Of a stretch of DNA of 64,000 nucleotides, positions 6,007 through 64,000 are shown in pieces. Within the stretch, counting starts at the first letter, position 1, and each line of letters starts with the position of its first letter. The DNA is from Oricola indica. GTDB lineage: Bacteria; Pseudomonadota; Alphaproteobacteria; Rhizobiales; Rhizobiaceae. The stretch covers positions 207,330 to 271,329 of the forward strand of contig NZ_JAINFJ010000002.1 of the NCBI RefSeq assembly GCF_019966595.1. The letters are read 5' to 3'. The position numbers and the translations under genes were made by a program. Under the pieces are notes generated by a model that ran no database searches, was not told the DNA's origin, and saw nothing but the letters and a program-made list of their open reading frames with translations.

Positions 6007-6905
6007 CCGCCCGCCTCCGTTGCTTTCGCCTGCGCGTTCTGGAACCAGACGATCGGCACGACCAGGACAATCAGCAGGATGATCGCGATGGCCGACGCCA
6101 CGGTCCAGTCGCTGTTGTTGAAGAACTCGGTCCACAGGGTCTTGCCGATCATCAGCGTGCCGGACCCGCCGAGCAGATCGGGGATCACGAACTCGCCGAC
6201 CGCCGGAATGAACACCAGGAGGCAGCCGGCCATGATACCGGGAACCGCAAGCCGGGCGGTCACCTTCCAGAAGGCGCCGATGCGCGTGCAGCCGAGATCG
6301 CGCGCCGCCTCGACAAGCGATTCATCCAGCTTCTCCAGCGTCGAATAGATCGGCAGCACCATGAAAGGCAGGTAGGAATAGACGATACCGATATAGACCG
6401 CCTTGTTGGTCGAGAGGATCTCAAGCGGCGCGTCGATGACGCCCAGCCAGAGCAGAAGCTGGTTGAGCAGGCCCTCCTGCTTGAGGATACCGATCCAGGC
6501 GTAGACGCGGATCAGGAAAGAGGTCCAGAACGGCAGGATCACCAACATCAGCAGGATCGGCCGCACTCCATCCGGCGCGCGCGCCATGCCATAGGCCAGC
6601 GGAAAACCGAGCAGAAGCGTGAGGAACGTGGAGACCAAAGCGATCTGCAGGCTCGACAGGTAGGAGTTGATGTAAAGCGAGTCGCTGGCGAGAAAGGAGA
6701 AATTCTCGAAATCGAGAGCGGACAGCTTCTCCCAGATCACGCTCCAGCCGTCGGAGAAGCTGAATTGCGGTGTATATGGCGGCGCGCCGTATTCGAGATC
6801 GGACAGCGATATGCGCAGCACGATCAGGAACGGCAGCAGGAAGAAGAACAGCAGCCAGACATAGGGGATCAGGATGACCAGCCGGTTGGTGAGCGCGCGC
6901 ATCAT
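6003..6905 (-). CDS. potH: Putrescine/spermidine ABC transporter permease PotH
   Basis: A 300-residue permease with six predicted membrane segments and the EAA loop (VEAARDLGCTRIGAFWKVT) near residue 200. It should form the PotH-PotI channel, powered by PotG. It begins five bases after potG ends and overlaps potI by four bases. Two tandem ATG codons (6905 and 6902) are possible starts. Confidence 0.92.
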   Translation of the reverse strand: MMRALTNRLVILIPYVWLLFFFLLPFLIVLRISLSDLEYGAPPYTPQFSFSDGWSVIWEKLSALDFENFSFLASDSLYINSYLSSLQIALVSTFLTLLLGFPLAYGMARAPDGVRPILLMLVILPFWTSFLIRVYAWIGILKQEGLLNQLLLWLGVIDAPLEILSTNKAVYIGIVYSYLPFMVLPIYSTLEKLDESLVEAARDLGCTRIGAFWKVTARLAVPGIMAGCLLVFIPAVGEFVIPDLLGGSGTLMIGKTLWTEFFNNSDWTVASAIAIILLIVLVVPIVWFQNAQAKATEAGG

Positions 6906-6910
6906 GGTGC

Positions 6911-8053
6911 TCAGCGCTCCAGCATGATGCCGGAATCGGCGCTGAAGGAGAGCCAGATCCGCTCGTCATAGCCGATCGGGTCGTCGACGAGGCGCGACCG
7001 GTTGATCATCGCGGCCTGCACCACATTGCCGGATTCGAGCTTGACGTTGATGATCGTCATGTCGCCGAGATAGGCGACATCCCAGACCTCGCCTTCCAGC
7101 GCATTGGCGGCCTCCGCCGGCTTCTCCCGGCTGACCTGCATCTTCTCCGGCCGGATCGCGAACCATACGGTCTGGCCGTCGGCGGGGGCCTTGCTCCCCC
7201 TCAGCCCCCCAACGATCCGGCCGTCGGGCCCTTCGATGGTGACATGCGACTCATCCGAGGAAACGACCTTGCCCTCAAGGGTGTTCACCGACCCGATGAA
7301 GTCGGCGACGTAACGCGTATCCGGGGCCTCGTAGATTTCCGCCGGCGTGCCGATCTGCGCGATGATGCCCTTGTCCATCACCGCGATGCGGTCGGACATG
7401 GTCATCGCCTCTTCCTGGTCGTGGGTCACGATCATGAAGGTCAGGCCCAGTTCCTGCTGCAGGTCCATCAGTTCGAACTGGGTTTCCTCGCGCAGTTTCT
7501 TGTCGAGTGCACCGAGCGGCTCGTCGAGGATCAGGAGTTTCGGGCGCTTCGCGACAGCGCGGGCAAGCGCGACGCGCTGGCGCTGGCCGCCGGACAATTG
7601 ATGTGGCTTGCGGCGGGCGAATTCCTCCAGCTTCACGAGCTTGAGCATCTGCGCCACGCGCTCGTCGCGGGCGCCTTTTTCCATGCCGTCCTGCTTCAGG
7701 CCGAAGGCGATGTTGTCGGCCACGCTCATATGCGGGAACAGCGCATAGGACTGGAACATCATGTTGACCGGCCGCTTGTGCGGCGGCACGCCCTTCAGCG
7801 GCTGGCCGTCGAGATAGAGTTCGCCCTCGGTCGGCTCCTCGAAGCCCGCCAGCATCCGCAGCAGCGTGGTCTTGCCGCAGCCGGACGGACCGAGCAGCGA
7901 GAAGAACTCGCGCTCGTAGACATCGAGCGAGAGATTGTCGACGGCGACGAAATCGCCGAACCGCTTGGTGACGTTCTTGAAGGAAATATACGGCTTCGCC
8001 GCGGGATCGTCCCAGGGCGCGAAAGAGCGCCGAATGCTTCCAAGCGATGGCAT
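6911..8053 (-). CDS. potG: Polyamine ABC transporter ATP-binding protein PotG
   Basis: A 380-residue ABC ATPase. Walker A (GPSGCGKTT) is at 55-63, the Q-loop near 101, the signature LSGGQ at 153-157, Walker B (LLILDEP) at 173-179, and the switch His in IVTHDQEEA. A TOBE-type regulatory domain fills the C-terminal third (about 290-370). It energises putrescine/spermidine uptake through PotH and PotI. A 62-base gap with a strong palindrome separates it from potF. That gap could set potF above the rest of the operon. Confidence 0.93.
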   Translation of the reverse strand: MPSLGSIRRSFAPWDDPAAKPYISFKNVTKRFGDFVAVDNLSLDVYEREFFSLLGPSGCGKTTLLRMLAGFEEPTEGELYLDGQPLKGVPPHKRPVNMMFQSYALFPHMSVADNIAFGLKQDGMEKGARDERVAQMLKLVKLEEFARRKPHQLSGGQRQRVALARAVAKRPKLLILDEPLGALDKKLREETQFELMDLQQELGLTFMIVTHDQEEAMTMSDRIAVMDKGIIAQIGTPAEIYEAPDTRYVADFIGSVNTLEGKVVSSDESHVTIEGPDGRIVGGLRGSKAPADGQTVWFAIRPEKMQVSREKPAEAANALEGEVWDVAYLGDMTIINVKLESGNVVQAAMINRSRLVDDPIGYDERIWLSFSADSGIMLER

Positions 8054-8083
8054 GATGTCCCCAATCCGCCGTTGAAGGAAAAC

Positions 8084-8107
8084 GGCTCCGGCGCATGCGC
8101 CGGAGCC
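8084..8107 (-). terminator. Intercistronic palindrome between potF and potG
   Basis: A perfect 24-base palindrome (arms GGCTCCGGCGCA and its complement) lies eight bases after the potF stop. On the minus strand it is followed by GTTTTCC, so it looks like a leaky terminator or an RNA stabiliser. Uneven expression of the binding protein over the transporter subunits is common in ABC operons; its role here is inference. Confidence 0.55.
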
Positions 8108-8115
8108 GATGAGGA

Positions 8116-9213
8116 TTACTGGCCCGACTTCACCGCGGTCCAGGTCCGGTTGAGCATGCGCTTCTCGCGGGCGTTTTCCGGAGAAACCGTGTAGAGACGG
8201 TCGATCGTCTCGTCGCTCGGATAGATCGCCGGGTCGCCAATGACGTCCTCGGCGAGGAATTCCTTCGAGGCCGCATTGCCGTTGGCGTAGTAGACATAGT
8301 TCGACGCCTTCGCCATGACCTCCGGACGCATGATGTAGTTCAGGAACTCATGCGCTTCCTCGACATGCTGCGCATCGGACGGAATCGCCATGTTGTCGAA
8401 CCACATCAGGGCGCCCTCTTTCGGGATGATGTATTCGACCGTCACGCCGGCATCGGCTTCGGCCGCACGATCGCGCGCCTGAAGGATATCGCCCGACCAG
8501 CCCATCGCCATGCAGATGTCGCCATTGGCGAGAGCGTTGATGTATTCCGATGAGTGGAACTTGCGGATGTCGGGCCGGATCTCGCTCAGCTTTTCCTTGG
8601 CCGCGTCGTAGCCTTCCTGCGTCTTCAGGTCCGGGTCCATGCCGAGATAATTCAACGTCGCCGGGATCGTTTCGGTCGGCGCGTCCAGCATGAAGATGCC
8701 GCAATCGGCCAGCTTGTCGGCCGTCTCCTTGTCGAACATCAGGTCCCATGTGTTCAGGACGGCGTCCTCGCCGAGGCGCTCCTTGACCATGTCGACATTG
8801 ATGCCGAGACCTGTCGTGCCCCACATGTAGTTGATGGCATACTCGTTGCCCGGATCGTATTTCTCCAGGCGCTCGGAGATCGCCGGGTCCATGTTTTCCA
8901 GATTCGGCAGCTTCGACTTGTCGAGCTTCTGGAACACGCCCGCCTTGATCTGGTTGGCGAGGAAGGTCCCGGTCGGCACGACGATGTCGTAGCCGGTCGA
9001 GCCGGCGAGAAGCTTGGTTTCCAGGACCTCGTTGGAATCGAAAACGTCGTAGACGACCTTGATGCCGGTCTCTTCCGTGAACTCCTCGAGGATGGATTCA
9101 TCGATGTAATCGGACCAGTTGTAGATGTTCACGACGCGGTCCTGAGCGTCGGCCGTCACGGCCATCGTCGCAATGGCGGCAACGGTCGCAAGTAGCATTT
9201 TCGAACGGATCAT
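8116..9213 (-). CDS. potF: Putrescine/spermidine-binding periplasmic protein PotF
   Basis: A 365-residue extracytoplasmic solute-binding protein. The first 23 residues form a Sec signal peptide (hydrophobic core LLATVAAIATMAV, cleavage after TADA). The mature start VVNIYNWSDYID is typical of PotD/PotF. It should capture polyamines in the periplasm for PotGHI. The frame is open to 9261, but the ATG at 9213 has GGAG six bases ahead and places the signal peptide at the N-terminus. It heads potFGHI. Confidence 0.93.
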   Translation of the reverse strand: MIRSKMLLATVAAIATMAVTADAQDRVVNIYNWSDYIDESILEEFTEETGIKVVYDVFDSNEVLETKLLAGSTGYDIVVPTGTFLANQIKAGVFQKLDKSKLPNLENMDPAISERLEKYDPGNEYAINYMWGTTGLGINVDMVKERLGEDAVLNTWDLMFDKETADKLADCGIFMLDAPTETIPATLNYLGMDPDLKTQEGYDAAKEKLSEIRPDIRKFHSSEYINALANGDICMAMGWSGDILQARDRAAEADAGVTVEYIIPKEGALMWFDNMAIPSDAQHVEEAHEFLNYIMRPEVMAKASNYVYYANGNAASKEFLAEDVIGDPAIYPSDETIDRLYTVSPENAREKRMLNRTWTAVKSGQ

Positions 9214-50816: not shown

Positions 50817-51168
50817 ATATCTTGTCGGCGACGTCAGATTCAAGCCGCGGAAATCCGAACATTTCGTTGCCTCCGCACATGCCCGGTAACCGAATGCCGA
50901 CCCTTGCCGCACCCGCATGAACCCAGCCGCCTGTCGCCGCGCGGGCAAGGTCAACGACGTCCGTCAGCACGGTGCACACCTGTTTCAAAACGGGACGCTG
51001 GCCTGAAAAGACACGCCGAGTCCCGCGATATTACAGCGCGTCGGAACACAACTTGACCGTTAACCACATCGCTTAAGCACACCTTATAAAAATAGCCGTA
51101 AGAGAACATGCATCGGAGCCAAAACGCGCCAATATCGAAGCGCGCTTCCAGAACAGGGAATCCAAGGC

Positions 51169-51420
51169 ATGAACTCCACCATTCGCGACCTCCTGACCAA
51201 ACATGGCCGCCTGCCGGTCTCCGTCGACACGATTGCCGACGACGCGGACCTTTACGAAGCAGGCCTTTCCTCTTTCGCTTCCGTCCAGCTGATGCTGGGC
51301 CTGGAAGAGGCCTTCGATATCGAGTTTCCGGAAACCCTCCTGAACCGCAAATCCTTCTCGTCGATCAACGCGATCGCCGCGTCCGTCAGCCAGATCACTG
51401 AAACGCAGCAGGTGGCCTAA
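51169..51420 (+). CDS. Acyl carrier protein-like carrier
   Basis: An 83-residue acidic four-helix carrier. The phosphopantetheine site is in DLYEAGLSSFASVQLM (Ser near 36-37), where the usual DSL is replaced by LSS. It should carry an amino acid or acyl group as a thioester. Its TAA is followed at once by the ATG of the dehydrogenase gene. The amino acid:carrier-protein ligase comes after, so this is most likely that ligase's carrier rather than the fatty-acid ACP. Confidence 0.88.
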   Translation: MNSTIRDLLTKHGRLPVSVDTIADDADLYEAGLSSFASVQLMLGLEEAFDIEFPETLLNRKSFSSINAIAASVSQITETQQVA

Positions 51421-52602
51421 ATGAACGTCGCCAGCCCGATTACGGCTCTCTCGCTTGCAGAACGCGCCCAAAGGGCTGCGAAGGTTGCGGCGGAATTCGC
51501 CGATACAGTCGACCGGGAAGCCCGCTTCCCGAAAGAAGGCATGGATGCCGTCAAGGCCGAACGGCTGATGGGTATCCAGATCCCCGTCCAGCATGGCGGC
51601 GAAGGCGCGACGATGAGCGAAGTCGCCGAGGTCTGCTCGATCCTCGGCAAGGCTTGCGCGGCGACGGCCATGACCTACGCCATGCACCAGATCCAGATCG
51701 CCAGCCTGTCGGATCATGCACCGGACAGCGCCTGGCACGAGGCGTTCCTGAAACGCATCTGTGACGAGCAATTGCTGATCGGATCGGCGACCAGCGAGGC
51801 CGGCATCGGCGGCAATCTGCGCAATTCCGTCTGCGCCGTGGACGTCGAGGGCGACATCGTCCGGCTCGAAAAGAACGCCACCGTCATTTCCTATGGCGCC
51901 GATGCGGACGCCATCATGGTGACCTCGCGCCGTCACAAGGATTCGCCGCCGAGCGACCAGGTCGCGACGCTGTTCACGAAGGACCAGTACACGCTTGAGC
52001 ACACGGCGGAGTGGGACACGCTCGGCATGCGCGGCACCTGCTCGGACGGCTACATCTTCCGCGGCGAAGCGCCGGCGGAACAGATCCTGCCCAAGCCCTT
52101 CGCGGAAATCGCGGCGCAATCCATGCTCGCGGTATCGCATCTTCTTTGGGGCGCGCTGTGGTTCGGCATCGCCGCCGACGCGGTGAACCGGGCACAGTCC
52201 TACGTGCGCGCTGCCGCACGCCGGTCTCCGGGCCAGACGCCTCCCGGCGCGCTGCGCCTCGCCGAGGCATCCAGCATGCTGCAGCAGGTGAAATCGAATG
52301 TCGTCGCCGGGCTGAAGCAGTTCGAAGCCGGCAAGGGCGATCCCGATGCGCTTTCGGCGATGGGCTTCGCGGTCGCGATGAACAACATCAAGATCGGCAC
52401 GTCCCAGACCATTCTCGACATCATCAACCAGTGCATGCTGATCTGCGGCATCCAGGGCTACAAGAACGGAACGCCCTACAGTCTCGGCCGGCACCTGCGC
52501 GACGCGCATTCGGCGCAGTTGATGATTTCCAACGACCGCATTCTCGGCAATACGTCGACGATGCTTCTCGTCGGCAAACAAGAAACCAGCCTTCTGAGGT
52601 AA
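51421..52602 (+). CDS. Acyl-CoA dehydrogenase family protein
   Basis: A 393-residue FAD enzyme of the ACAD fold. It has an N-terminal helical domain, a central beta domain (LLIGSATSEAGIGGNLRNS near 118, WDTLGMRGTCSDG near 200) and a C-terminal helical domain. The family's usual catalytic Glu could not be assigned with confidence by eye. It starts directly after the carrier gene stop. Relatives oxidise carrier-bound aminoacyl groups such as prolyl-S-carrier. The neighbouring amino acid ligase makes a similar role plausible here; that is inference. Confidence 0.83.
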   Translation: MNVASPITALSLAERAQRAAKVAAEFADTVDREARFPKEGMDAVKAERLMGIQIPVQHGGEGATMSEVAEVCSILGKACAATAMTYAMHQIQIASLSDHAPDSAWHEAFLKRICDEQLLIGSATSEAGIGGNLRNSVCAVDVEGDIVRLEKNATVISYGADADAIMVTSRRHKDSPPSDQVATLFTKDQYTLEHTAEWDTLGMRGTCSDGYIFRGEAPAEQILPKPFAEIAAQSMLAVSHLLWGALWFGIAADAVNRAQSYVRAAARRSPGQTPPGALRLAEASSMLQQVKSNVVAGLKQFEAGKGDPDALSAMGFAVAMNNIKIGTSQTILDIINQCMLICGIQGYKNGTPYSLGRHLRDAHSAQLMISNDRILGNTSTMLLVGKQETSLLR

Positions 52603-52605
52603 GCC

Positions 52606-53514
52606 ATGGACAAGCAAGTCTCCTTTCTCGACCAGCTTTTCGATCAGGGCATCCTGCATGACAGCGGTGTCGATGGCCTCTATGCGCGCAGCGACCTCTT
52701 CGAGGAGGTCATCACCCGCTTCGAGGCATTGGCGAAGTCCTTCGGCAAGGACGAAACCAGCGAAGCGATGGTGTTTCCGCCGGGCATGCCGATCAAGGAT
52801 TTCGAGACCAGCGGCTACATGAAGAACTTCCCGCATCTGGCGGGGACGGTTCACGCCTTTTGCGGCAATGATCACGACCATGCAGGGCTGCTGCAGTGTC
52901 TCGAAGTCGGCGAAGACTGGTCGGAGAACCAGAAGCCGACCGACGTGGCGCTGACCCCGGCTGCCTGCTATCCGCTCTACCCGATCCTCGCGCGGCGCGG
53001 CGCGCTGCCGGCGGAAGGCGCCTATGTGGCGCTGCAATCCTATTGCTTCCGCCACGAGCCCTCGCGCGATCCGGCCCGCATGCAGATGTTCCGCCAGCGC
53101 GAATTCGTGCGCGCCGGTTCCGCCGACCAGGCGATCGCGTTCCGCGAGACCTGGAAACAGCGCGGCCAGGACATCATGAAGCTGCTGGAACTGCCCTGCA
53201 CGGTGGATGTCGCGAACGATCCGTTCTTCGGACGGGCCGGCAAGATGATGGGGTCCAGCCAGCGCGAACAGGAACTGAAATTCGAGCTGCTCGTGCCGGT
53301 CAATTCGGCCGCGAACCCGACCGCCTGCATGAGCTTCAACTACCACATGGACAATTTCGGCAAGGCCTGGGACATCCGCCAGCAGGACGGCTCGCACGCC
53401 CATACGGCATGCGTCGGCTTCGGGCTGGAACGCATCGCCCTGGCGCTTTTCCGCCATCACGGCATGGATGTGGAAAGCTGGCCGGCAGGTGTCCGCAAGG
53501 CGCTCTGGGGCTGA
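52606..53514 (+). CDS. Amino acid:[carrier protein] ligase (class II aaRS-like)
   Basis: A 302-residue relative of atypical seryl-tRNA synthetases that lacks the tRNA-binding arm. It has class II motif 2 (CFRHEPS, 147-153) and motif 3 (GFGLERIAL, 271-279). A Cys-Glu-Cys set (C121, E166, C269) fits the zinc site known in this family. Characterised homologues from Bradyrhizobium and Agrobacterium activate glycine or alanine with ATP and load it on a small carrier protein, not on tRNA. The carrier encoded two genes upstream is the evident partner. The gene is three bases after the dehydrogenase gene. Confidence 0.92.
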
Positions 53515-53527
53515 CATCTTGGCATCG

Positions 53528-54532
53528 ATGACCGACCTTCCGGCGATCTTCCCGGCGCTCGACCCGACCGACTACGCGCGGCATGCGCTGCATGCGGGGA
53601 CGCGCGACTGGCCGGAGACGAACTGTTATCTCGACGTCTGGATCGAGGTGCTGCCGGCGCTCGGCCTGCCGCCGGAAGCCTGCCTTTCCTATGCGGTCAC
53701 GCAGGATTTCGAAGGCGACCAGTTCACCTTCTTCAAGGTGCCGCTGGAAGACCTCGAACGCCTTTACGGCCTGCGGGTCACCGAACTGGCGATCTACGAC
53801 CGGGTCGAAAACCATGTCGTCGAACAGATCGGACGCGGCCGGCTGTCGCTGGTGGAGGTGGACAGCTTCTACCTGCCCGACACGCAGGGCACGTCCTATC
53901 GCAAGGAACACGGCAAGACGACGATCGCGCCGAACCGGATCGACCTCGAAGGCCGGTGCATGGATTACTTCCACGGGCTGGGTCTGCATCGGCTCGAAGG
54001 CGAGGACTTCGAGGGCGTTTTCCACCTGAACGCCGCAGAGGGCGCCCTGCCCTTCCTGCCCTACACGGAATTCGTGAAGTTCCCCGACGCGTTGCCGTCG
54101 CGCGACGAGATTGTCGCGAATGCCGAAGGGTTGCTGCGTCTGCACCTTGGCCGCCGGCCGGCGAAAAATCCGGTGCGGGCCTTTGCCGAGGTGTTTCCCG
54201 GCCAGGTCGAGGCGATCGCGGAGCGCGATTTCGGCTTCTTCCATCTCTACGCCTTCAACACGCTGCGGCAACTCGGCGCGAATTTCGAGCTGTTCTCCAG
54301 CCATCTGGACTGGCTTGCCGAAAACGGCGTGACCGGCATCGGGGCGAGCGCCGACGAGGCGCGCAAGATCTCCTCGACCTGCAAGATCGTCCAGTTCCAG
54401 CTCGCGCGCGCAGTGATGCGCAAGAATTTCGACAAGCTGGCACCGGCGCTGATCCCGGCGATCGACGCCTGGGACGCAATGACGGAAAGCCTCGACACCA
54501 TCGTCGGCAAGGCCACATCCAGGGCCGCCTGA
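53528..54532 (+). CDS. DUF1839 family protein
   Basis: A 334-residue soluble protein matching DUF1839, which recurs beside amino acid:carrier-protein ligases. Conserved-looking stretches are ETNCYLDVWIEVLPALGL near 33, ITVDSFYLPDT-like (EVDSFYLPDTQG) near 117 and the helical C-terminal part. It may accept the aminoacyl group from the carrier, but no catalytic motif is recognisable. It starts 13 bases after the ligase stop; the ATG at 53528 is preceded by no clear ribosome site, so coupling is likely. Confidence 0.75.
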   Translation: MTDLPAIFPALDPTDYARHALHAGTRDWPETNCYLDVWIEVLPALGLPPEACLSYAVTQDFEGDQFTFFKVPLEDLERLYGLRVTELAIYDRVENHVVEQIGRGRLSLVEVDSFYLPDTQGTSYRKEHGKTTIAPNRIDLEGRCMDYFHGLGLHRLEGEDFEGVFHLNAAEGALPFLPYTEFVKFPDALPSRDEIVANAEGLLRLHLGRRPAKNPVRAFAEVFPGQVEAIAERDFGFFHLYAFNTLRQLGANFELFSSHLDWLAENGVTGIGASADEARKISSTCKIVQFQLARAVMRKNFDKLAPALIPAIDAWDAMTESLDTIVGKATSRAA

Positions 54533-54559
54533 CCGATCAACATTCCCGCGGGACGCGCC

Positions 54560-57043
54560 ATGAAACGCCGCATCATGTCATCCGACGGCCATGCATCACG
54601 GATCGAATCCGGCTGGTGGATGGCGCTGAGCGAGGCGGGCGCGGTCGCCGAACCTTCCGATCTGGGCGCTCTCAAGGACTGGATACAAGCCAAGGTTCCC
54701 GGAACGGCGGCCGGCGCGCTTGCCGCCGCCGGGCAGTTCAACGCCGAGGATCCGACACCGCTGCACGACAAGGATGCGTGGTTCATCGCCGGCATTCGCG
54801 AAGACGAACCGGGCGAACGCCTGCTCGTCTTCGAAGGACTCGCGACCATTGCGGAGGTCTGGTGGAACGGCGAAAAGATCCTCGACAGCGACAGCATGTT
54901 CCTCGGCCATGACGTACGGGTGACCGCGCGCGAGGACAATGCGCTGGCGATCTGCTTTCGGGCGCTCGAGCCGCACCTCGCGGCGAAAGGCCCGCGCGCG
55001 CGCTGGCGTCCGCAACTGGCGGTGTCGCAGGGGCTACGGCTGGTGCGCACGACGCTGCTCGGCCACATGCCCGGCTGGTGTCCCGAGGTTCACGCCGTCG
55101 GGCCGTGGCGGCCTGTCTCGCTTTTGAAACCCGACGCGCCGAGCGTCCGCATCGACACGATGACCGCGACGCTGGAAGACGACGGGACCGGCGTTCTGTC
55201 GCTGGCCTTCTCGCTCGACAACACGCCGGGCGTTCCCGTCATCCGCTGCGCCGGTGAAAGCGCTGAAGCGACGCGCGCGGATGATGGAAGCTGGCGCGCG
55301 CAACTGCGGATCGCCGATGTCGCGGCATGGTGGCCGCACACCCATGGCGACCCGGCGCTGCATGCCATTTACGTCGATGCCGGCGGCGACAGTTTCAGCC
55401 TCGGCAAGACCGGTTTCCGCCGTATCGAAGTCGAACGCGGCGCGGACGGCAAGGGATTCGCGCTGACCGTGAACGGAACGCCCGTCTTCTGCCGGGGCGC
55501 GGTGTGGACCAACGCGAATATCGTCAATTTGCCGGGCGACGCCGAGAGCTATCGCCCGTGGCTCGACCTTGCCGCCGAGGCGGGCATGAACATGCTGCGC
55601 GTCGGTGGAACGATGGTCTATGAGAGCCCGGATTTCTTCGCCTTGTGCGACGAACTCGGCCTGATGGTCTGGCAGGACTTCCAGTTCGCCAATTACGATT
55701 ATCCGGTCGGCGACGACGCCTTTGCCGGGGCGGTGCGCGAAGAAGCGCGGCATTCCCTCGGTGCAACGATGGGAAGCCCGTCGCTCGCCGTTCTGTGCGG
55801 CGGAAGCGAGATCTACCAGCAGGGCGCGATGCTCGGCCTGCCAGAAAGCAAATGGCGCGGGCCGCTGACCGAGGAAATCCTGCCGGAAATCTGCGCCGAA
55901 CTGCGCCCCGACGCGGTCTATGCCGCCAACTCGCCGGACGGTGGCGCGCTGCCGTTCTCGCCCGATTCCGGCATCGCGCATTATTACGGCGTCGGCGCCT
56001 ATCGCCGCCCGCTGGACGATGCGCGGCGCGCCAATGTGCGGTTCGCAGGCGAGTGCCTCGCCTTCTCTCATGTGCCGCAGCAACGCACGCTCGATGCACA
56101 CCTGCCGGTGATGCCGTGCCACGACCCGCGCTGGAAGGCCCGAGTCCCGCGGGACCGCGGCGCGGGCTGGGATTTCGAGGATGTGCGCGACCACTATTTC
56201 AAGCTGATCTACGGCGTCGACCCGATCGAGGTGCGCTACGGCGACCCGGCGCGCTATCTCGACATGTCGCGGGCGGTGACCGGCGAGGTGATGGAAGCGG
56301 TCTACGCCGAATGGCGGCGCGCCGCCTCGCCCTGCCAGGGGGCGCTGGTCTTTACCTACCAGGACCTGCTGCCCGGCGCAGGCTGGGGCCTGGTCGATTC
56401 CACCGGCGAACCAAAGCCGGCATGGTACGCGCTCAAGCGCGCGTTCCGTCCGTTGCAGGTGGCCCTGACCGACGAGGGCACCAACGGCCTTGCGGTGCAT
56501 GTCGTCAACGAGACCGCGACGACGCGGGACGTGGAACTGACGATCGATTGCCTGCGCGACGGCGCGACACGGGTGGTCGGCGGCGAACGCACGCTGACGC
56601 TCGCGCCGCGCGAATCCCTCGAAATTCCGGCGACCGATCTGTTCGGAGCTTTCTTCGACACGACCAACGCCTATCGCTTCGGCCCGCCGGCCCACGACGT
56701 GACGGTTGCGCGGCTGCGCGAGCCGGATTCGCATGTCGTGCTCGCCGACGCGTTTCATTTCCCGGCGGGCTATCCCGCCGCCCGCGTGCCCCTGGCGATC
56801 GAGGCCAGCGCCGAACGCGACGAGCGGGGCAACTGGTGGCTGGCGCTTTCGACCGACCGTTTCGCGCAGTCGGTGCATGTGGACGACGCCAATTTCCGGC
56901 CCGCCGACGACTGGTTCCACCTTGCGCCGGGCGCGAACCGGCATGTCCGCCTGATCCGCAGGGTCGATGCCGCAGAAAGCGCCGTGCCGGCGGGAACGGT
57001 CACGGCGCTCAACGGGACGCGCGGTTTCGGGTTTGGGGGCTAG
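54560..57043 (+). CDS. GH2-type beta-mannosidase-like glycoside hydrolase
   Basis: An 827-residue protein with GH2 architecture: an N-terminal sugar-binding-like domain (about 40-190), an immunoglobulin-like domain (about 195-290), a TIM barrel (about 300-640) and a C-terminal beta region. The likely acid/base is E417 (CGGSEIYQQ) and the likely nucleophile E498 (FAGECLAF), both in variant contexts. No signal peptide is seen, so it acts in the cytoplasm. It may trim or remodel a glycoside of the product made by the carrier-protein module. It starts 27 bases after the DUF1839 gene. Confidence 0.78.
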   Translation: MKRRIMSSDGHASRIESGWWMALSEAGAVAEPSDLGALKDWIQAKVPGTAAGALAAAGQFNAEDPTPLHDKDAWFIAGIREDEPGERLLVFEGLATIAEVWWNGEKILDSDSMFLGHDVRVTAREDNALAICFRALEPHLAAKGPRARWRPQLAVSQGLRLVRTTLLGHMPGWCPEVHAVGPWRPVSLLKPDAPSVRIDTMTATLEDDGTGVLSLAFSLDNTPGVPVIRCAGESAEATRADDGSWRAQLRIADVAAWWPHTHGDPALHAIYVDAGGDSFSLGKTGFRRIEVERGADGKGFALTVNGTPVFCRGAVWTNANIVNLPGDAESYRPWLDLAAEAGMNMLRVGGTMVYESPDFFALCDELGLMVWQDFQFANYDYPVGDDAFAGAVREEARHSLGATMGSPSLAVLCGGSEIYQQGAMLGLPESKWRGPLTEEILPEICAELRPDAVYAANSPDGGALPFSPDSGIAHYYGVGAYRRPLDDARRANVRFAGECLAFSHVPQQRTLDAHLPVMPCHDPRWKARVPRDRGAGWDFEDVRDHYFKLIYGVDPIEVRYGDPARYLDMSRAVTGEVMEAVYAEWRRAASPCQGALVFTYQDLLPGAGWGLVDSTGEPKPAWYALKRAFRPLQVALTDEGTNGLAVHVVNETATTRDVELTIDCLRDGATRVVGGERTLTLAPRESLEIPATDLFGAFFDTTNAYRFGPPAHDVTVARLREPDSHVVLADAFHFPAGYPAARVPLAIEASAERDERGNWWLALSTDRFAQSVHVDDANFRPADDWFHLAPGANRHVRLIRRVDAAESAVPAGTVTALNGTRGFGFGG

Positions 57044-57123
57044 GCGCGGATGCTGGCGAACACACTCCTTCCAAGTTTTCAGGGGACCGGCGGCCCGAAC
57101 CCCGGTTTCAAAGGCGCGCGCCC

Positions 57124-58899
57124 ATGAATATCGCACCCGCACCCGGAACTATAAGCAACACGGCTCTCGACGCCTCGGCACCCGCCACGCCGCTCGTCTT
57201 CGACGGAATGGCCGGCTTCTTCCACGCGGCTGACGGCGATACGGCCGTATTGCTGCTGAGCCCGTGGGGCTATGAGGAACTGTGCACGCACAAGTCGATC
57301 CGGCTGCTCGCCGAGCGGCTTGCAGCGGCCGGTTTTCCCTGCCTGCGCTTCGACTATCCGGCGACTGGCCATTCGCTGGGTGCAAGCGCCGATCTTGACG
57401 ACGAGACCGCCTGGCGAAAAAGCGTGAAGCGGGCACTGGAGGAACTGCGCCGGCTGACAGAGCCGCGCCGGATCATCGTCATCGGCCAGGGTCTCGGCGG
57501 CGCGCTGGCGGGAGACCTTGCCCGCGACACCGATCTCGACGGGCTGGTGCTGATGGCGCCGGTGATCCAGGGCCGGACGTATCTGCGCGAGCTCACGGCA
57601 TGGACGGCGATGACCAAGCCATCCTTCCTGGTAAGCGCATCCGACGGTCCGGAAGGCGGGCTGATGGCCGGCGGTTTCGTGCTGTCGGCAGCGACGACGA
57701 AGGAAGTCCGCGCGCTTGACCTGACCAAGGACTGGACGCCTCGCGCGGGGAAAGTCCTGCTGGTCGCGCGCGACGACCATGGCGGCGATGACATGCTGGC
57801 CGAAATCCTGGCGGATCGCGGGTTAACACCGGACACGATCCCGTTCGAACGCTACGCGGATTATGTCAGCGACTCCGTCTTTTCGATCGTCATCGACGAC
57901 ATCATCGATAAGGTGGTCGCCTGGTGCTCGACGAATTTCCCTTTCGAGAGCGTCATGCCTCGCCCAGACAGGGACCTTCCTGCAGAGCTTTCGGGCCCGG
58001 ACTTCCGGGAAACGCTGCTGCGCTTCGGTCCCGACCACGACATGTTTGGCGTGTTCACGGAGCCGACAAGAGCGCCCTCGGGAACGGCTTACCTGTTTCT
58101 CAATACGGGGCTGGACCACTCGATCGGCTGGGGCCGCATGGTGGTGGATTTCGCGAGAACGCTTGCCCGCGAGGGGCATGCCGGCTTCCGGATAGACGTC
58201 ACCGGCATCGGCGAAACACGGCTCAGGCCGGGTCAGGCGCCTGAGGTGATGTACACCGATACTCATATCGGCGATGTCAAACAGGCCATCGACTGGCTGC
58301 TCGACGGACACGGGATCGAGAGAGTGATCCTCGTGGGCCGCTGCAGCGGCTCATATCTTGCCGGGATTTCCGCAGCGGCGGACGAACGGGTTTCGGGCAC
58401 CGCGATCATCAATGCGCGACGGCTGGTCTGGGATACGCGCGCGGATTTCGAAAAGGAGTTCGGCCGGCCGGTTCGGGCGCTGGAAGCATACAAGCGCCGA
58501 CTGTCTGACGGAAAATCGCTACGGAAGATCCTGACGGGGCAGGTGCCCGTTCGCAAGATCGTGGCAAAACTCACCGAGGGCGTCTATCGGGAGGCAGACC
58601 GGGCGTTGGCACCGCTGCTCGGCCGCCTCACCTGGCACGGGCAACTGGGCCACATATTGAACACCCGCTTCGCAACCCTGCGGGATCGCGGCACGGCCGT
58701 GGAGCTTATCTATTCGAACGAGGATGAAGGTCCGCGCGATCTGGAGATGTGGTTCGGCGACGCCTTCGACGGGCTTGCGAAATATCCGAATATCAAGCTG
58801 TCATTCATATCTCATGCAGACCATAACCTCACGCCGATCGACGCGCGGGATGCGGTGCTGGAGAAGCTGCGCGACATCGCGCGGCGCATCCGCGACTGA
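57124..58899 (+). CDS. Tandem alpha/beta hydrolase with altered nucleophile positions
   Basis: A 591-residue protein with two alpha/beta-hydrolase domains (about 20-285 and 310-590). In domain 1 the nucleophile elbow reads G121-Q-G-L-G125, with Gly where Ser should be, so it is probably inactive. In domain 2 it reads G405-R-C407-S-G409, with Cys as nucleophile, and GHADHNL-like SHADHNLTP supplies a late His. Cys-type hydrolases often transfer acyl groups. Exosortase-associated EPS hydrolases also show Cys at this site. The frame is open far upstream; the ATG at 57124 is set by the end of the GH2 gene and the start of the hydrolase fold. Confidence 0.8.
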   Translation: MNIAPAPGTISNTALDASAPATPLVFDGMAGFFHAADGDTAVLLLSPWGYEELCTHKSIRLLAERLAAAGFPCLRFDYPATGHSLGASADLDDETAWRKSVKRALEELRRLTEPRRIIVIGQGLGGALAGDLARDTDLDGLVLMAPVIQGRTYLRELTAWTAMTKPSFLVSASDGPEGGLMAGGFVLSAATTKEVRALDLTKDWTPRAGKVLLVARDDHGGDDMLAEILADRGLTPDTIPFERYADYVSDSVFSIVIDDIIDKVVAWCSTNFPFESVMPRPDRDLPAELSGPDFRETLLRFGPDHDMFGVFTEPTRAPSGTAYLFLNTGLDHSIGWGRMVVDFARTLAREGHAGFRIDVTGIGETRLRPGQAPEVMYTDTHIGDVKQAIDWLLDGHGIERVILVGRCSGSYLAGISAAADERVSGTAIINARRLVWDTRADFEKEFGRPVRALEAYKRRLSDGKSLRKILTGQVPVRKIVAKLTEGVYREADRALAPLLGRLTWHGQLGHILNTRFATLRDRGTAVELIYSNEDEGPRDLEMWFGDAFDGLAKYPNIKLSFISHADHNLTPIDARDAVLEKLRDIARRIRD

Positions 58900-58913: not shown

Positions 58914-60572
58914 TTACTTCGCGCCGCCGCCGACATTGAGAAGCGAGAAACCCGCGGAACCGCGGGAATGGCGCGGCGACGGCGTTCCGCTCGCGGGCCG
59001 TTTCGCCTCGATGCGGTCGAACGCAGTGTCCACCCGGGCCGCCTTTTCGGGATCCGGTTCGACGTCCATCCGCTTGGGCCGATCGAATTCCGCGTAGACC
59101 GGGCTGTCTTCGATACGGGACGGCGGCAGCTCATAATCGGCGGCAGGTTCCGTCTCTTCGACCTCGGCGGTCTTGTTGCGCAGGATTGCAGCAAGCTGCC
59201 GGGCAACTTCGCCGCCGATGACCAGCGCCACGCCAACCATCACGCCGAAAAACCCGCCCAGTATCACCAGAAGCTTCTTTTTCGGCCAGACCGGGCTCTT
59301 GGCCGGCAGGCCGGGGCCGATGATCCGCGCAGAAGGAATGACGACTTCGTCAAGCGTCGATATCTGATTGGCGCGCGACAAGGCGCTTTCGTAGATCGTT
59401 CGCGATGCCTGGGCGTCCGACTCAAGCTCGCGCAGTCGGATCATCGCGGCGTCGCCGCTGTCGCTTCGGTCACGCGACATTTCGATTGCGCTTGAGAGAT
59501 TCGCCACACGCACCCGCGCAATACCCAGTTCGACCTTCGCCGCATCGGCTGCATCCTGCGCTTCCGCCTGCAACAATCCCTCAAGCCTGCGAACCTCGGA
59601 GCGCGCACCGATCAGGCGGGGATGTTGCGGAAGCAACTCCGCTTCGAGATTGGCGACGGTGCGCACGGCGGTCGTATATTGCGACCGCAATTCGGCGACA
59701 TTCGGCGAGGTGGAAATCTCGTTGATGGAGTTGGCGCTGACACCGCCCTTGACGAAGGCAGTGAGCTGGTCGTAGCGCGCCTGCTTCTCCGCTAGCATCG
59801 CCCTGGCCTCAGTCAGTTGCGTACTCAAGCCAGCCAGTTCCTGGCTCGTGAGCAGGCCGTCCTCGCCGGTGCTCTGAAGCCGGTTCGCCGCCTTGTATTC
59901 CTGCGCGGCGACCTCAGCGGTACGCATCCGGTCGCGAAGCTCGGCAAGTCGTTCCTGGATCTGCTCGTCGATACCGGCAGACGAGAGCTGCTTGTCGCGC
60001 TGCCGATCAGCGAGGTAGCTTTCGGCGATACCTTGCGCGAGCTTCGCGGATTTCTCGGCGCTCCCGCTTTCCACGGACACGCTGATGACACGGGTGGTGC
60101 CGACACGGCTGGCGGAGACCGCTTTTGACAACGCGCTGACCGCCGCGTTTTCGCGCGCGATTTCATCGGTCGGTCCGCTATCCGAGCTTCCGAAACCCAA
60201 AAGGTCGAGCAGAGAAGTGCTGGCGCCGCCATCGCCGAATTCGTCGTCGGCCTTGAGATTGAAATGTCGCACAACAGGCCGCAAGACCGAGTCCGATCCA
60301 ATCACCGCGACCTGGCTTTCGATGTAGCTGCCCTCGTCGATCCCGCGCTTGGGTATATTCGGGTCGTCGAAAGGCTGACGCGCGTCCGGATCAATCAACA
60401 GGCTCGCGGTCGACACGTAGACCGGCGTCGCCATCAGCGCATAAATGATCGTCACGACAACGAACGCGGCCGCCGTCAGCACGACAAAGTGCAGACGCCG
60501 GCGCAGCACGGTCAGAATGGCCCAGATATCGAGCCCGACCGGTCCTAACGACATTTGGCGGGAAGCTTGCAT
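58914..60572 (-). CDS. Wzz/GumC-like polysaccharide chain-length protein
   Basis: A 552-residue polysaccharide co-polymerase. It has an N-terminal Wzz domain with the first membrane helix (about 26-50), a long coiled-coil periplasmic part (about 150-400: QIQERLAELRDRMRTAEVAAQ) and a second helix near 430-450 after the Pro-rich PGLPAKSPVWPKKK signature. The cytoplasmic tail of about 100 residues is not a BY-kinase, unlike ExoP. It should set EPS chain length and export. The ATG at 60572 has AGGA seven bases ahead. It converges on the tandem hydrolase gene. Confidence 0.88.
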   Translation of the reverse strand: MQASRQMSLGPVGLDIWAILTVLRRRLHFVVLTAAAFVVVTIIYALMATPVYVSTASLLIDPDARQPFDDPNIPKRGIDEGSYIESQVAVIGSDSVLRPVVRHFNLKADDEFGDGGASTSLLDLLGFGSSDSGPTDEIARENAAVSALSKAVSASRVGTTRVISVSVESGSAEKSAKLAQGIAESYLADRQRDKQLSSAGIDEQIQERLAELRDRMRTAEVAAQEYKAANRLQSTGEDGLLTSQELAGLSTQLTEARAMLAEKQARYDQLTAFVKGGVSANSINEISTSPNVAELRSQYTTAVRTVANLEAELLPQHPRLIGARSEVRRLEGLLQAEAQDAADAAKVELGIARVRVANLSSAIEMSRDRSDSGDAAMIRLRELESDAQASRTIYESALSRANQISTLDEVVIPSARIIGPGLPAKSPVWPKKKLLVILGGFFGVMVGVALVIGGEVARQLAAILRNKTAEVEETEPAADYELPPSRIEDSPVYAEFDRPKRMDVEPDPEKAARVDTAFDRIEAKRPASGTPSPRHSRGSAGFSLLNVGGGAK

Positions 60573-60733
60573 ACGCACGTCCTAGAGAGCACAAATTATT
60601 CCTAACGATCCGTACACAAGTCTGGTTATTACTTCGCTAACGACGCCAGCGGCTTATCTCGGCCGGCGCAGGCGAGCGCCCGCGTGCGGGGCCTGTTGAC
60701 GGTAACTTAATCGGTTCGTGGTCCAATCCGTGT

Positions 60734-60859: not shown

Positions 60860-61615
60860 TTGTTCTTCTTCAACATTCCCTTGAAGTCCCGAAAAGTCTC
60901 GAAAGACTGGGCGCTCGTCACCAGGTTTTTCGAGCAGACGCTGTCCTCGGTCTTCAACCAGAGCAACGACAGTTTCAGGGTCTTCGTGGCCTGCCACGAC
61001 ATTCCGGAAACGCGCTTCAACGATGATCCCCGGCTGACCTATGTACAGGTCGATTTTCCTCCGCCGCTCTACAAAGACGAATTCGTCGTCGACAAGCACA
61101 AGAAGCGCGAGGTTCTCGCCGCAAGGCTGCGCGCCGAAGGGGGTGGCTACGCGATGGATCTAGACGCCGACGACCTTGTAAGCCGCAGGCTTGTCGCTCA
61201 TGTCCTGAATGACGCCAATCCCTACGGATATGTGGTCAAGGATGGATATGAATACGACTACGGTCGACAGCTCGTCAGGAAAGCCCCGCGCTTCAACAAA
61301 TTGTCGGGAAGCTGCTCGGTGATCCGCTGGGAGGTGGAAGATCTGCCCGAGATTCCCTACCGCGACGAAACCACGCTCTTCAGGGAAACTATCAACAATT
61401 TTCACCCCACCCATGAAGCGCTGTTCGCCGGTAAGGGGCGTCCGTTGGCTCCGGTTCCATTTCGCGCCGTCGCCTACATGATGAACAATTCGGAAAACAT
61501 CTCCGTACAGACCGGCAATGTCGGCTGGCGACGCGCATTGCTGCGAAGATTCACACCGGCCGGACCTGTCAGCAAGGAATTCGCCGAGGAATTCGGATTG
61601 AAACGGACCGGATAG
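60860..61615 (+). CDS. Glycosyltransferase-like protein (GT-A type)
   Basis: A 251-residue protein with a GT-A-like fold: an N-terminal beta-alpha segment (TRFFEQTLSSVFNQSNDSFRV), then an acidic nucleotide-sugar motif MDLDADDL (D100, D102, D104). It probably adds a sugar to the EPS repeat unit. The sequence is unusual, so donor and acceptor are unknown. The start is TTG at 60860 with AAGG eight bases ahead; no ATG is available nearby. It is divergent from the Wzz/GumC gene and converges on the O-antigen ligase gene. Confidence 0.72.
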   Translation: MFFFNIPLKSRKVSKDWALVTRFFEQTLSSVFNQSNDSFRVFVACHDIPETRFNDDPRLTYVQVDFPPPLYKDEFVVDKHKKREVLAARLRAEGGGYAMDLDADDLVSRRLVAHVLNDANPYGYVVKDGYEYDYGRQLVRKAPRFNKLSGSCSVIRWEVEDLPEIPYRDETTLFRETINNFHPTHEALFAGKGRPLAPVPFRAVAYMMNNSENISVQTGNVGWRRALLRRFTPAGPVSKEFAEEFGLKRTG

Positions 61616-61661: not shown

Positions 61662-62972
61662 TCAGCCCCGCGGTTTCGCGTTCGCCGCGCGGTCGAAATC
61701 GCCGGCTCGCGGAAGAAATGCCGCGAACAGAAACAGCAGCCAAGCCAGCGAGTAGCTGCGAAACAGGCTGCTCTCCAGCATGTTGTGGCTGACGACGATC
61801 AACACCAGCGTAATCGCCAGCCAACAAAGCGCCGGTTGCCGCTCAAGGGATTTCGCAGCCGACAGAAGAGTGGCGACGATCAGCGCAAGCAAGATGATGA
61901 GGCCGATCAGGCCGGTTTCGACGAACACGTCCAGAAAACCGTTATGCGCCTGCTGCAGCCGGGCGACCAGCGCCGGCGCTTCAGTATCAACGATCGATCC
62001 CGCCCCGACGCCCCAGAATGCAGCGTATCCCTGTCCGACCAGCGGACTGCGTGAAATCACATCCAGCACGAATTCCCAGATAATCGTACGCCCAGTGAAG
62101 GTGGTATCGCCGAAGAGCAACATCGACATGTCGGCGAAGGTGTAGCCCGTGAGGGCAGAAATGTAGAACCACGCCGCGATGGCGAAAACGGCAGCAAAAA
62201 GAACAAACGCGGCTACGTTCATTCGCACCGGCCTCGCGATCGCGATTGCCATGAAGGTCAGGGCCGGCATCATGACTGCCAGGCCGAGCGAGGTTTTCGA
62301 CCGACTTTCCACAAGCGCGACGAATGCCATGACGACGCACGCGAGAAACACGATGCGCAAAGTCCCGCGCCGGGTCGCCGCGCCATAGAGACAAAGGCAG
62401 ATCGCGAACATCATCATTGAGCCTAGCGTGTTCTTGTGGTCGTAGATGCCCTCATGCCCGAGCGGACCGGGCGGAGTGGCCAGCACCACGACGAAATTGA
62501 GCACGACAGCCATTACGATTACCGACAGAATACGCTCGAGCATCCGGTCACGGTCCGTCGCCAGCGCGCTCGGCAGGATGACGGACAGCACGACGATGGC
62601 CTGCAGGACGAGCCTGCGAAAACTGATCGTGGGGGCGTAGGACCAAAGCAGGCTCATCGCGGCAAATGCGAGATAGGCGACGACGAGAACAACGACTGGA
62701 TCACGGAGCAAGCGGAACGCAGCACCAAAGTCCCGCCTCACCGCGATCAGGGTCAGAGCGAGCATGCCGATCCAGAACAGCTGGTTGGCTGGGTTCGATT
62801 GCGCGCCAGCCACGTTGACGTTGGTCGACTCCGACGGCGCCATCGCCTGAACGATCAAGGGCGAAAGCAGGAAGACATAGGCGAAGATGATTGCGGGTAT
62901 CCAGTGCAACAGACGGCGCGAGTCCGCATCCGTAGCCGCTTCTGTCACCCTGGAGTAGTAGTCGTCCGCCAT
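61662..62972 (-). CDS. O-antigen ligase/polymerase family membrane protein (Wzy_C)
   Basis: A 436-residue protein with about ten to twelve membrane segments and the large periplasmic loop of the Wzy_C/WaaL family. The characteristic region LFGDTTFTGRTIIWEFVLDVISRSPLVGQGYAAFWG is cited for its TGRTxIW...PxxGxG pattern near 290-325. A conserved HNGFLDVFVETG His motif is near 350. It polymerises or ligates EPS repeat units in the periplasm. It starts at 62972, divergent from the ATP-grasp gene. Confidence 0.85.
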   Translation of the reverse strand: MADDYYSRVTEAATDADSRRLLHWIPAIIFAYVFLLSPLIVQAMAPSESTNVNVAGAQSNPANQLFWIGMLALTLIAVRRDFGAAFRLLRDPVVVLVVAYLAFAAMSLLWSYAPTISFRRLVLQAIVVLSVILPSALATDRDRMLERILSVIVMAVVLNFVVVLATPPGPLGHEGIYDHKNTLGSMMMFAICLCLYGAATRRGTLRIVFLACVVMAFVALVESRSKTSLGLAVMMPALTFMAIAIARPVRMNVAAFVLFAAVFAIAAWFYISALTGYTFADMSMLLFGDTTFTGRTIIWEFVLDVISRSPLVGQGYAAFWGVGAGSIVDTEAPALVARLQQAHNGFLDVFVETGLIGLIILLALIVATLLSAAKSLERQPALCWLAITLVLIVVSHNMLESSLFRSYSLAWLLFLFAAFLPRAGDFDRAANAKPRG

Positions 62973-63452: not shown

Positions 63453-64000
63453 ATGATAGAGTTCGACCGCTACAAGCGCATCCTCAACGAGGATTTCCCC
63501 GTCTATCTGAAAGCCCGCGACCGAAAGCCAGTCATTCGACAGGCGATGGAGATCTACCGGCTGATGCGGATGTACCGATATCTTCCATATCAGTACCTCA
63601 AGCACGGACTGTATCGACGCGGTTTCGACAAGGAAATCTACCGCTACATTCCGCCGGAATTGCTGCACCTCACCCGCAACAATCTGAACGCCCGAGGCGA
63701 CAAGGAAGCGCTCCACGACAAGTTGCAACAGGAGAAAATGTTGTGCGACGGCGGGGTACCCACCACAAAGACCCTGTTTCGGTTGCAAAAGTCCGGCATC
63801 GTTGACCTCGAGGGCAATCAGGTCGAATTCAAGGATTTCATCGACAGGGTCGGCGAGATGGCACTGCCGAGAGGCATGATCGTGAAGCCGCGCGATGGCG
63901 GATCGGGAGCCGCGGTCTTCAAGATGGATGTCGAGGACGGCATCCTCATCCACGAGGGTGAGCCCCTCGATTTCGAAGCCTTTCGAACACTCGTGTACAC
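63453..64000 (+). CDS. Sugar-transfer associated ATP-grasp protein, N-terminal part (runs off window)
   Basis: The frame from ATG 63453 stays open to the window end (182 codons seen). The product starts MIEFDRYKRILNEDFP. Its N-terminal helical region (LMRMYRYLPYQYLKHGLYRRGF is part of it) leads into an ATP-grasp entry (DKLQQEKMLCDGGVPTTKTL and PRGMIVKPRDGGSGAAVFKM). This matches the sugar-transfer associated ATP-grasp family found in EPS clusters. Such enzymes join a carboxylate to an amine or thiol, so it could attach an amino acid or similar group to a glycan. It is divergent from the O-antigen ligase gene. Confidence 0.8.
   Translation, partial: MIEFDRYKRILNEDFPVYLKARDRKPVIRQAMEIYRLMRMYRYLPYQYLKHGLYRRGFDKEIYRYIPPELLHLTRNNLNARGDKEALHDKLQQEKMLCDGGVPTTKTLFRLQKSGIVDLEGNQVEFKDFIDRVGEMALPRGMIVKPRDGGSGAAVFKMDVEDGILIHEGEPLDFEAFRTLVY

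Follow-up and report, generated by a model that had tools for sequence, protein, structure and literature searches.

An aminoacyl-tRNA-synthetase-like ligase operon of Oricola indica and its possible part in the amide decoration of surface glycans

Carrier proteins supply a small amino acid to surface glycans in the AlmEFG and DltABCD systems, as glycyl and D-alanyl groups respectively. The system described here is a run of six plus-strand genes in a stretch of 64,000 nucleotides from Oricola indica (contig NZ_JAINFJ010000002.1, positions 207,330 to 271,329; the whole stretch is called the window and its numbering is used throughout). It differs from both in having a ligase of the aminoacyl-tRNA synthetase (aaRS)-like type, and neither an adenylation domain of the nonribosomal peptide synthetase type nor an MBOAT match was found among the six genes. 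Amino-acid-loading carrier-protein ligases were reported in 2010 (cited in PMC2922099), and the role of the loading was still called unknown in a review of 2022 (PMC9437257). The closest description is a note in proof of 2010 (Biol Direct 2010 5:48, PMC2922099), which names the ligase, an acyl carrier protein (ACP), a redox enzyme, the conserved open reading frame (ORF) Atu2574, a glycosidase and liposaccharide genes, and predicts that Atu2574 joins the carried amino acid to a cell-surface amino sugar by an amide bond. This sugar-aminoacylation prediction for a seryl-tRNA-synthetase paralogue shares all these gene types and the predicted amide bond with the locus treated here, and the core idea is thus already in print as a prediction.

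The original prediction for the Oricola locus had presented it as the best candidate for an undescribed system, which cannot be upheld in view of the amide to a surface amino sugar predicted in 2010 (PMC2922099); its interpretation is right in outline and was partly anticipated there. The passages of PMC2922099 that set out the 2010 prediction include no tandem Cys hydrolase, no fusion to the flippase Wzx and no co-occurrence counts, and leave the fold of the ORF unnamed. What is added here is the probable membership of the hydrolase, its flippase fusion and better support. In searches of an open-access library, neither a test of the 2010 prediction nor any reference to the hydrolase or the Wzx fusion came up, which is weak evidence of absence because most papers were seen as listings.

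All six closely spaced genes of the original prediction are present in the window, as confirmed by the ORF list and by family scans, with intergenic gaps of 0, 3, 13, 27 and 80 nucleotides. They encode a carrier protein (83 residues, 51169-51420; PF00550, 35.3 bits), a flavoprotein with the fold of the acyl-CoA dehydrogenases (ACAD; 393 residues, 51421-52602; PF02771/PF00441), a class II aaRS-like amino acid:[carrier protein] ligase (302 residues, 52606-53514), a papain-like DUF1839 protein that is a predicted carrier-dependent aminoacyltransferase (53528-54532; PF08893, 434.3 bits), a GH2 enzyme (827 residues, 54560-57043; PF22666) and a tandem alpha/beta hydrolase (591 residues, 57124-58899). 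The start codons of DUF1839 and of the tandem hydrolase are chosen ATG codons; an alternative upstream start is possible at 53468 for the former, and the latter sits inside an open frame of 1084 codons. An antisense ORF of 814 residues (51073-53517) was dismissed as a gene, being on the strand opposite to conserved genes.

The conservation of these genes was followed in 109 loci, namely 80 ligase relatives from GTDB, 23 further genome regions, five plasmid records and the window; 108 of them are distinct, L095 and L139 being a single plasmid place. The GTDB loci are the best 80 of at least 562 confirmed ligase relatives and lean to Rhizobium. Counts were obtained by six-frame searches with profiles built from the window and the loci, at a threshold of E 1e-5 for the main counts and of E 1e-3 for loci with exosortase-type hydrolases; only the clustering of neighbour genes relied on a simple GC-frame gene finder. 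Carrier protein, ACAD-fold enzyme, ligase, DUF1839 and GH2 are all present in 96 of the 109 loci: in 80/80 GTDB loci, 10/23 further regions, 5/5 plasmid loci and the window. The 13 loci short of this core (L111, L113, L114, L117-L125 and L133) all belong to the 23-region set and mostly carry more distant ligases; in L111 it is GH2 that was not seen. According to the original prediction, neighbourhoods of ligase homologues that never shared the GH2, hydrolase or exopolysaccharide (EPS) genes would have told against it; GH2 was found in 96 of the 109, the hydrolase in 71 and Wzx in 45, next to 101 for the carrier protein.

Selection by another gene gave the same picture. Fourteen regions were chosen by DUF1839 from genomes outside the first set, one of which, L212, appears to be the same place as L038; all 14 hold the five core genes. 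DUF1839 was found in 5/385 genomes of the class and in 16/398 of the phylum sample, where the ligase adjoins it at 16 of 18 places; of the remaining two, one is at the end of a contig and one is an additional DUF1839 gene some 4 kb beyond the first. The core spans Alpha- and Betaproteobacteria and lies on both chromosomes and plasmids, five more core-bearing plasmid records having been found beyond the five of the locus set. Since the core is kept in 96/109 loci and in 14/14 regions selected by DUF1839, the five genes behave as a single unit, a near-fixed operon, and by the neighbourhood counts the six-gene arrangement is beyond chance. A second DUF1839 gene, on the opposite strand, was also observed soon after the core in Cupriavidus metallidurans (L182) and in another genome of the phylum (L208).

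The tandem hydrolase is probably the sixth member of the operon. Among 41 genomes (that of the window and 40 relatives) the ligase occurs in nine, whereas the hydrolase, searched for at E 1e-10, occurs in eight; these eight are exactly the genomes with the DUF1839-type core, against none of the 33 others (Fisher 1e-8, for related genomes that are not independent). In the ninth ligase genome (G423), ligase and ACAD are accompanied by a divergent carrier, with neither DUF1839 nor GH2 adjacent and no hydrolase. In three of the eight (G400, G406 and G418) core and hydrolase are on different contigs, possibly through a contig break in G400. A GH2 orthologue scoring at least 793 bits is confined to the same eight genomes, with weaker GH2 paralogues in others.

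The two halves of this protein correspond to the exosortase-A-associated hydrolases 2 and 1 (TIGR03101 and TIGR03100), and it scores below both cut-offs (80.0 against 168.45 bits and 57.9 against 202.75 bits). Cys407, Asp534 and His567 of the C-terminal domain, and Gly123 at the nucleophile position of the N-terminal domain, are kept in 19/19 aligned sequences (of 21, two partial ones dropped; this and the other alignments include the window), so that by motif one domain would be dead and the other an active Cys-type hydrolase. A Foldseek search with its AlphaFold2 model (pLDDT 86.5) gave nothing more specific than lipases and esterases of a general kind, which covered the model in part. In ten fetched loci with exosortase-A hydrolases above the cut-off, a Wzz match lies nearby in seven (E 1e-3); these loci have the hydrolases as at least two separate ORFs in 5/10 and as one in 5/10, whereas the window has one fused protein, and they lack ligase, ACAD, DUF1839 and GH2. 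A weak carrier match stands beside the hydrolase in two of the ten (L267 and L268), and the pair of carrier and hydrolase may be a wider theme of EPS loci.

The link of the operon to polysaccharide assembly holds in part. Profile matches to Wzx, glycosyltransferase (GT) families GT4 and GT2, Wzz or Wzy were found in 56/80 GTDB loci, 4/23 further regions and 1/5 plasmid loci, against 1/40 arbitrary 20-kb regions (taken at round coordinates in genomes of the 23-region set, not of the GTDB set), a contrast that is somewhat inflated, and to that extent less favourable to the link, because the profiles were trained on these loci. In 26/80 GTDB loci, all titled Rhizobium or Rhizobiales bacterium, and also in L216 and L218, the Wzx and hydrolase profiles match one open frame; one such fusion, of 1103 residues, was scanned with Pfam and NCBIfam, which bear out both halves, the N-terminal one as a flippase type and the other as the hydrolase. 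Where the hydrolase gene is separate from the core, polysaccharide families occur in the fetched stretch in 6/7 cases, against 1/40 in the control (p = 4.5e-6); one of the six has only a single GT4 about 7 kb away, and for three of the seven the looser threshold of E 1e-3 was used. Moreover, one EPS-type locus on a Tsukamurella plasmid combines ligase, carrier, phosphopantetheinyl transferase, GTs, a polyprenyl glycosylphosphotransferase and a flippase-type protein with a tandem hydrolase that repeats the dead/Cys pattern and has Cys-Asp-His; ACAD, DUF1839 and GH2 were not found in its 16.9 kb. This cross-phylum locus argues that the polysaccharide link is functional. An earlier impression, derived from a tblastn scan and plasmid records, that the EPS genes were a mere local quirk was dismissed, the profiles matching Wzx, GT and Wzz in many GTDB loci, though not in most plasmids. 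As for the EPS-joined pathway of the original prediction, EPS genes are frequent but not obligatory neighbours, seven of eight annotated plasmid records listing no polysaccharide assembly locus nearby, and the hydrolase occurs in the same 8/41 genomes as the core.

The carrier protein exceeds its NCBIfam cut-off (NF005480, 122.8 against 72 bits) and has a weak DltC match; Ser35 (GLSSF, codon 51271-51273), invariant in 17/17 aligned sequences (of 30), is the predicted phosphopantetheine site by its position in the family. The ligase likewise exceeds its cut-off (NF005479, 488.6 against 357 bits) and aligns over its full length with the solved Bll0957 (PDB 4h2w and 3mey; 3.4e-88), which suggests that class II motifs 2 and 3 are retained. 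Cys121 (52966-52968), Glu166 (53101-53103) and Cys269 (53410-53412) are invariant in 20/20 aligned sequences, partial and distant matches left out, and coincide with the Cys/Glu/Cys positions of Bll0957; the Cys-Glu-Cys set of the original prediction is therefore present, and its residues are presumably zinc ligands. Bll0957 prefers Gly. For the ligase family, Ala, Gly and Ser have been reported as the loaded amino acids (PMC9437257), and bll0957 adjoins the acyl-CoA dehydrogenase gene bll0958 (PMC10888616), an arrangement like that of ligase and ACAD in the window.

Two observations concern other relatives of the ligase. In Rhizobium-type loci the operon is preceded by efp, a tRNA-synt_2 gene (epmA-like) and a radical SAM gene (epmB-like), located in L054 at 5470-8298, where Pfam confirmed them, and found likewise in 44-48 loci by clustering; the epmA-like gene is another aaRS paralogue directly beside the aaRS-like ligase operon. 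Streptomyces clavuligerus plasmid records (H70-H77) carry distant ligase homologues with 27.7% identity, annotated as hypothetical or without a listed gene.

The ACAD-fold enzyme is about equally close to acyl-CoA dehydrogenases and to enzymes of the nitrososynthase type, its matches in PDB being acyl-CoA dehydrogenases, the FAD oxidoreductase 3m9v (presumably of the KijD3 type), DnmZ, a nitrososynthase, DszC and a prolyl-ACP dehydrogenase. The catalytic Glu is absent from both usual base positions, which were taken from MCAD and IVD and placed by sequence alignment: position 369 is Ile or Val in 30/30 sequences (Ile369 in the window), and position 238 is variable, with Glu in 0/30. His240, Trp243 and Trp247 are invariant in the same 30. 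A classical alpha,beta-desaturation of acyl-CoA was dismissed on account of this missing Glu.

For DUF1839, an AlphaFold2 model (pLDDT 90.5) has a papain-like fold in which Cys33 leads the helix 33-44. Its best matches to solved structures in Foldseek (best chain each) are AziU3 (1.2e-7), CtaG (5.7e-6) and CcbD (8.0e-5), a likeness that is moderate (TM 0.5-0.6, identity 10-14%). Cys33 (53624-53626), Thr131, Thr132 and His149 (53972-53974) are invariant in 30/30 sequences; they fit the Cys-(Thr/Ser)-His triad published for DUF1839 (PMC10318531), with Thr131 or Thr132 as the candidate middle residue. In the same source, glycan processing is suggested for the family from genome context. CcbD binds a carrier-borne amino acid as a Cys thioester and then transfers it to a sugar amino group (PMC12945683). 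CtaG, AziU3 and the lincosamide amide synthases CcbD/LmbD have the papain-like fold in common with DUF1839; they work in other operons, and in the model proposed here the acceptor would be a polymer building block. The triad of CcbD is Cys-His-Glu, unlike the one published for DUF1839, and this difference, together with the moderate structural scores, weighs against the amide-transfer reading. The original prediction had left the transfer of the amino acid to either DUF1839 or the Cys hydrolase, and the likeness to CcbD, CtaG and AziU3 lends fold-based support to the former.

The closest solved structures to the GH2 enzyme are beta-mannosidases (from 5.7e-47). Ser416, Glu417 and Glu498 are invariant in 20/20 aligned sequences (of 30), and both catalytic Glu are present; Glu417, in an SE motif, is the predicted acid/base and Glu498 the predicted nucleophile by alignment to the solved beta-mannosidases. 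No N-terminal signal peptide was seen by eye. The enzyme lacks the traits of GH2_13 beta-mannosidases (NE motif, loop 2 Trp): SE stands in 20/20 sequences, and the loop-2 position 349, placed by alignment, holds Gly in 16 of them, with Ser and Pro in two each. SE in place of NE and loop-2 traits are shared with GH2_14, whose traits are tied to substituted substrates (PMC12243196).

The reading preferred here, with a probability of roughly 0.47, is that the operon decorates an amino sugar of a surface glycan, by an amide bond, with a small amino acid that is carried and oxidised. From the gene set, its conservation, the Wzx fusion and the DUF1839 fold, all obtained by computation, the following reactions are inferred. 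The ligase would adenylate a small amino acid, most likely Gly or Ala, and load it onto the phosphopantetheine of the carrier protein, as its characterised homologues do. The ACAD-fold enzyme would then oxidise the carried amino acid; since it lacks the usual Glu and a Gly substrate would offer no beta carbon, oxidation between Calpha and N or N-hydroxylation appears likelier than alpha,beta-desaturation. To judge from fold, invariant residues and operon, Cys33 of DUF1839 would accept the acyl group and pass it, in the manner of CcbD, to the amino group of the sugar. The Cys hydrolase, placed at glycan assembly or flipping in view of its Wzx fusion in Rhizobium, may act as an acyltransferase or may remove wrong products by hydrolysis; its place in the operon is well supported, the reaction proposed for it is not. 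Finally, in what is the weakest step, the cytoplasmic GH2 enzyme might release or trim a C2-substituted beta-glycoside intermediate. A more specific form, in which an N-hydroxylated or imino/oxo amino acid is amide-joined by the papain-like transferase to an amino sugar of a cytoplasmic glycan and a flippase-bound Cys hydrolase serves as a checkpoint coupled to export, is regarded as unlikely.

Several results weigh against amide decoration of a surface glycan. In this reading both the amino acid and the acceptor amino sugar are predictions. No polysaccharide family lies within the fetched stretch in 24/80 GTDB loci, nor a hydrolase in 22/80. Hydrolases of the wider family are also found where there is no core: TIGR03100 matches 23/249 genomes of a phylum sample, of which 16 are not DUF1839 carriers. 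Unlike the window, some loci of the 23-region set have ligase and ACAD without DUF1839 and GH2 (L113, L117, L118 and L133). Seven of the eight annotated core-bearing plasmid records list no polysaccharide assembly locus within 10-14 kb in tables that are incomplete, and three of these seven have all six genes contiguous; the exception is a Shinella plasmid, which lists such a locus by the core. By profile, two of ten core-bearing plasmid records have a polysaccharide family (L140 and, weakly, L182). For a plasmid-borne core, the polysaccharide genes that are needed may act from elsewhere.

The plasmid records are also what favours the best surviving alternative, a somewhat unlikely one, according to which the product of the core is a small diffusible compound, namely an N-acyl or oxidised amino-acid amide of a sugar that leaves the cell as a signal or for defence, and the polysaccharide genes are no more than frequent neighbours or borrowed suppliers of sugar. 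On a conjugative plasmid of R. gallicum (L186, NZ_CP017104.1 270807-295712) the core is directly downstream of nifHDKENX-fdxB, is followed by an ACC deaminase gene and is possibly symbiosis-regulated. A Priestia plasmid (L181, NZ_CP072477.1 100091-116972) carries acpS, carrier, ACAD, ligase, a DMT transporter, an ATP-grasp gene and hydrolase, then alanine permease and alanine racemase, near comX; this variant is likely a small-molecule pathway and hints at alanine as the amino acid. Both places add to the case against glycan decoration. AziU3, moreover, serves an antibiotic pathway. CcbD (PMC12945683) and CtaG also serve such pathways. Against a diffusible product stand the in-frame fusion of Wzx and hydrolase and the polysaccharide neighbours kept by the hydrolase copies apart from the core; in addition, no recurring exporter besides Wzx was found among the annotated neighbour families, which are a minority of the clusters. 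In Mycetohabitans (L138, NZ_CP062180.1 784896-813777), one of the seven plasmid records without a listed assembly locus, a lipid A aminoarabinose transferase gene is annotated some 8 kb ahead of the core; since it is an amino-sugar gene, it could be relevant to the acceptor.

Quite improbable is an O-aminoacylation, in which the Cys hydrolase would form an ester in the way of D-alanylation or glycylation and DUF1839 would be a thioesterase or editing enzyme. It would suit the facts that the hydrolase is the part fused to Wzx, that its Cys, Asp and His are kept throughout the alignment, and that ligase, carrier and hydrolase are all present in the Tsukamurella stretch, in which no DUF1839 was found. 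The amide-synthase fold of DUF1839 and its place next to the ligase at 16/18 sites suggest more than editing. Very improbable is a pure genomic-island effect, by which a mobile core and polysaccharide genes pile up at the same sites: the core does travel on conjugative plasmids and lies beside plasmid replication genes, as on a Phyllobacterium plasmid (L139, NZ_CP050300.1 108008-132913), where it and a convergent hydrolase are immediately beside repC, but hydrolase and core share the same 8/41 genomes, three times on different contigs (with the possible break in G400), and neither the in-frame Wzx fusion nor the cross-phylum Tsukamurella locus fits such an effect. Carrier-bound nonribosomal peptide synthesis, first proposed for the ligase family in PNAS in 2010 (as reported in PMC2922099), is scarcely credible, no peptide synthetase domain having been found in the scanned window genes and none being listed in the eight annotated core-bearing plasmid stretches.

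The EPS genes and the ATP-grasp ligase that were said to follow the operon directly are indeed there, with Wzz and Wzy on the minus strand and ATP-grasp on the plus strand. A Wzz/GumC-type polysaccharide chain-length protein (58914-60578, minus strand; PF02706, PF13807 and TIGR01005, the last with 163.3 bits and below its cut-off) is encoded convergently with the six-gene operon. It is followed by an ORF of 251 residues with a TTG start and without a Pfam match (60860-61615, plus strand), a Wzy/O-antigen-ligase-type polymerase (61662-62972, minus strand; PF04932, 45.2 bits) and an ATP-grasp-type ORF (63453-64000, plus strand), the start of a frame of 371 residues that ends at 64568 beyond the window; its part in the window (182 residues) had no Pfam match by itself. 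A single profile seeded with this ORF matches both it and a paralogue of the sugar-transfer-associated type at 65913-67031 (PF14397, 118 bits). Lying partly past the window on the same contig, the EPS locus thus holds Wzz, Wzy, two ATP-grasp paralogues and a Wzx-type protein, and further a GH5 enzyme, a heparinase II/III-like protein, two GT4s, a UDP-sugar dehydrogenase and a GT2. Between 63453 and 78100 it also encodes a protein with an AMP-binding match just below cut-off.

Through this operon the amino-acid-loading ligases gain a complete list of partners, a likely transfer enzyme whose chemistry has a precedent, and polysaccharide assembly as the likely site of action. The question of what the loading is for becomes testable in rhizobia by gene deletion and polysaccharide analysis. 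If the proposed pathway is true, a descendant of the aaRS would have been recruited into the chemistry of surface glycans, and a job would have been found, in rhizobia and their relatives, for enzymes without a known purpose.

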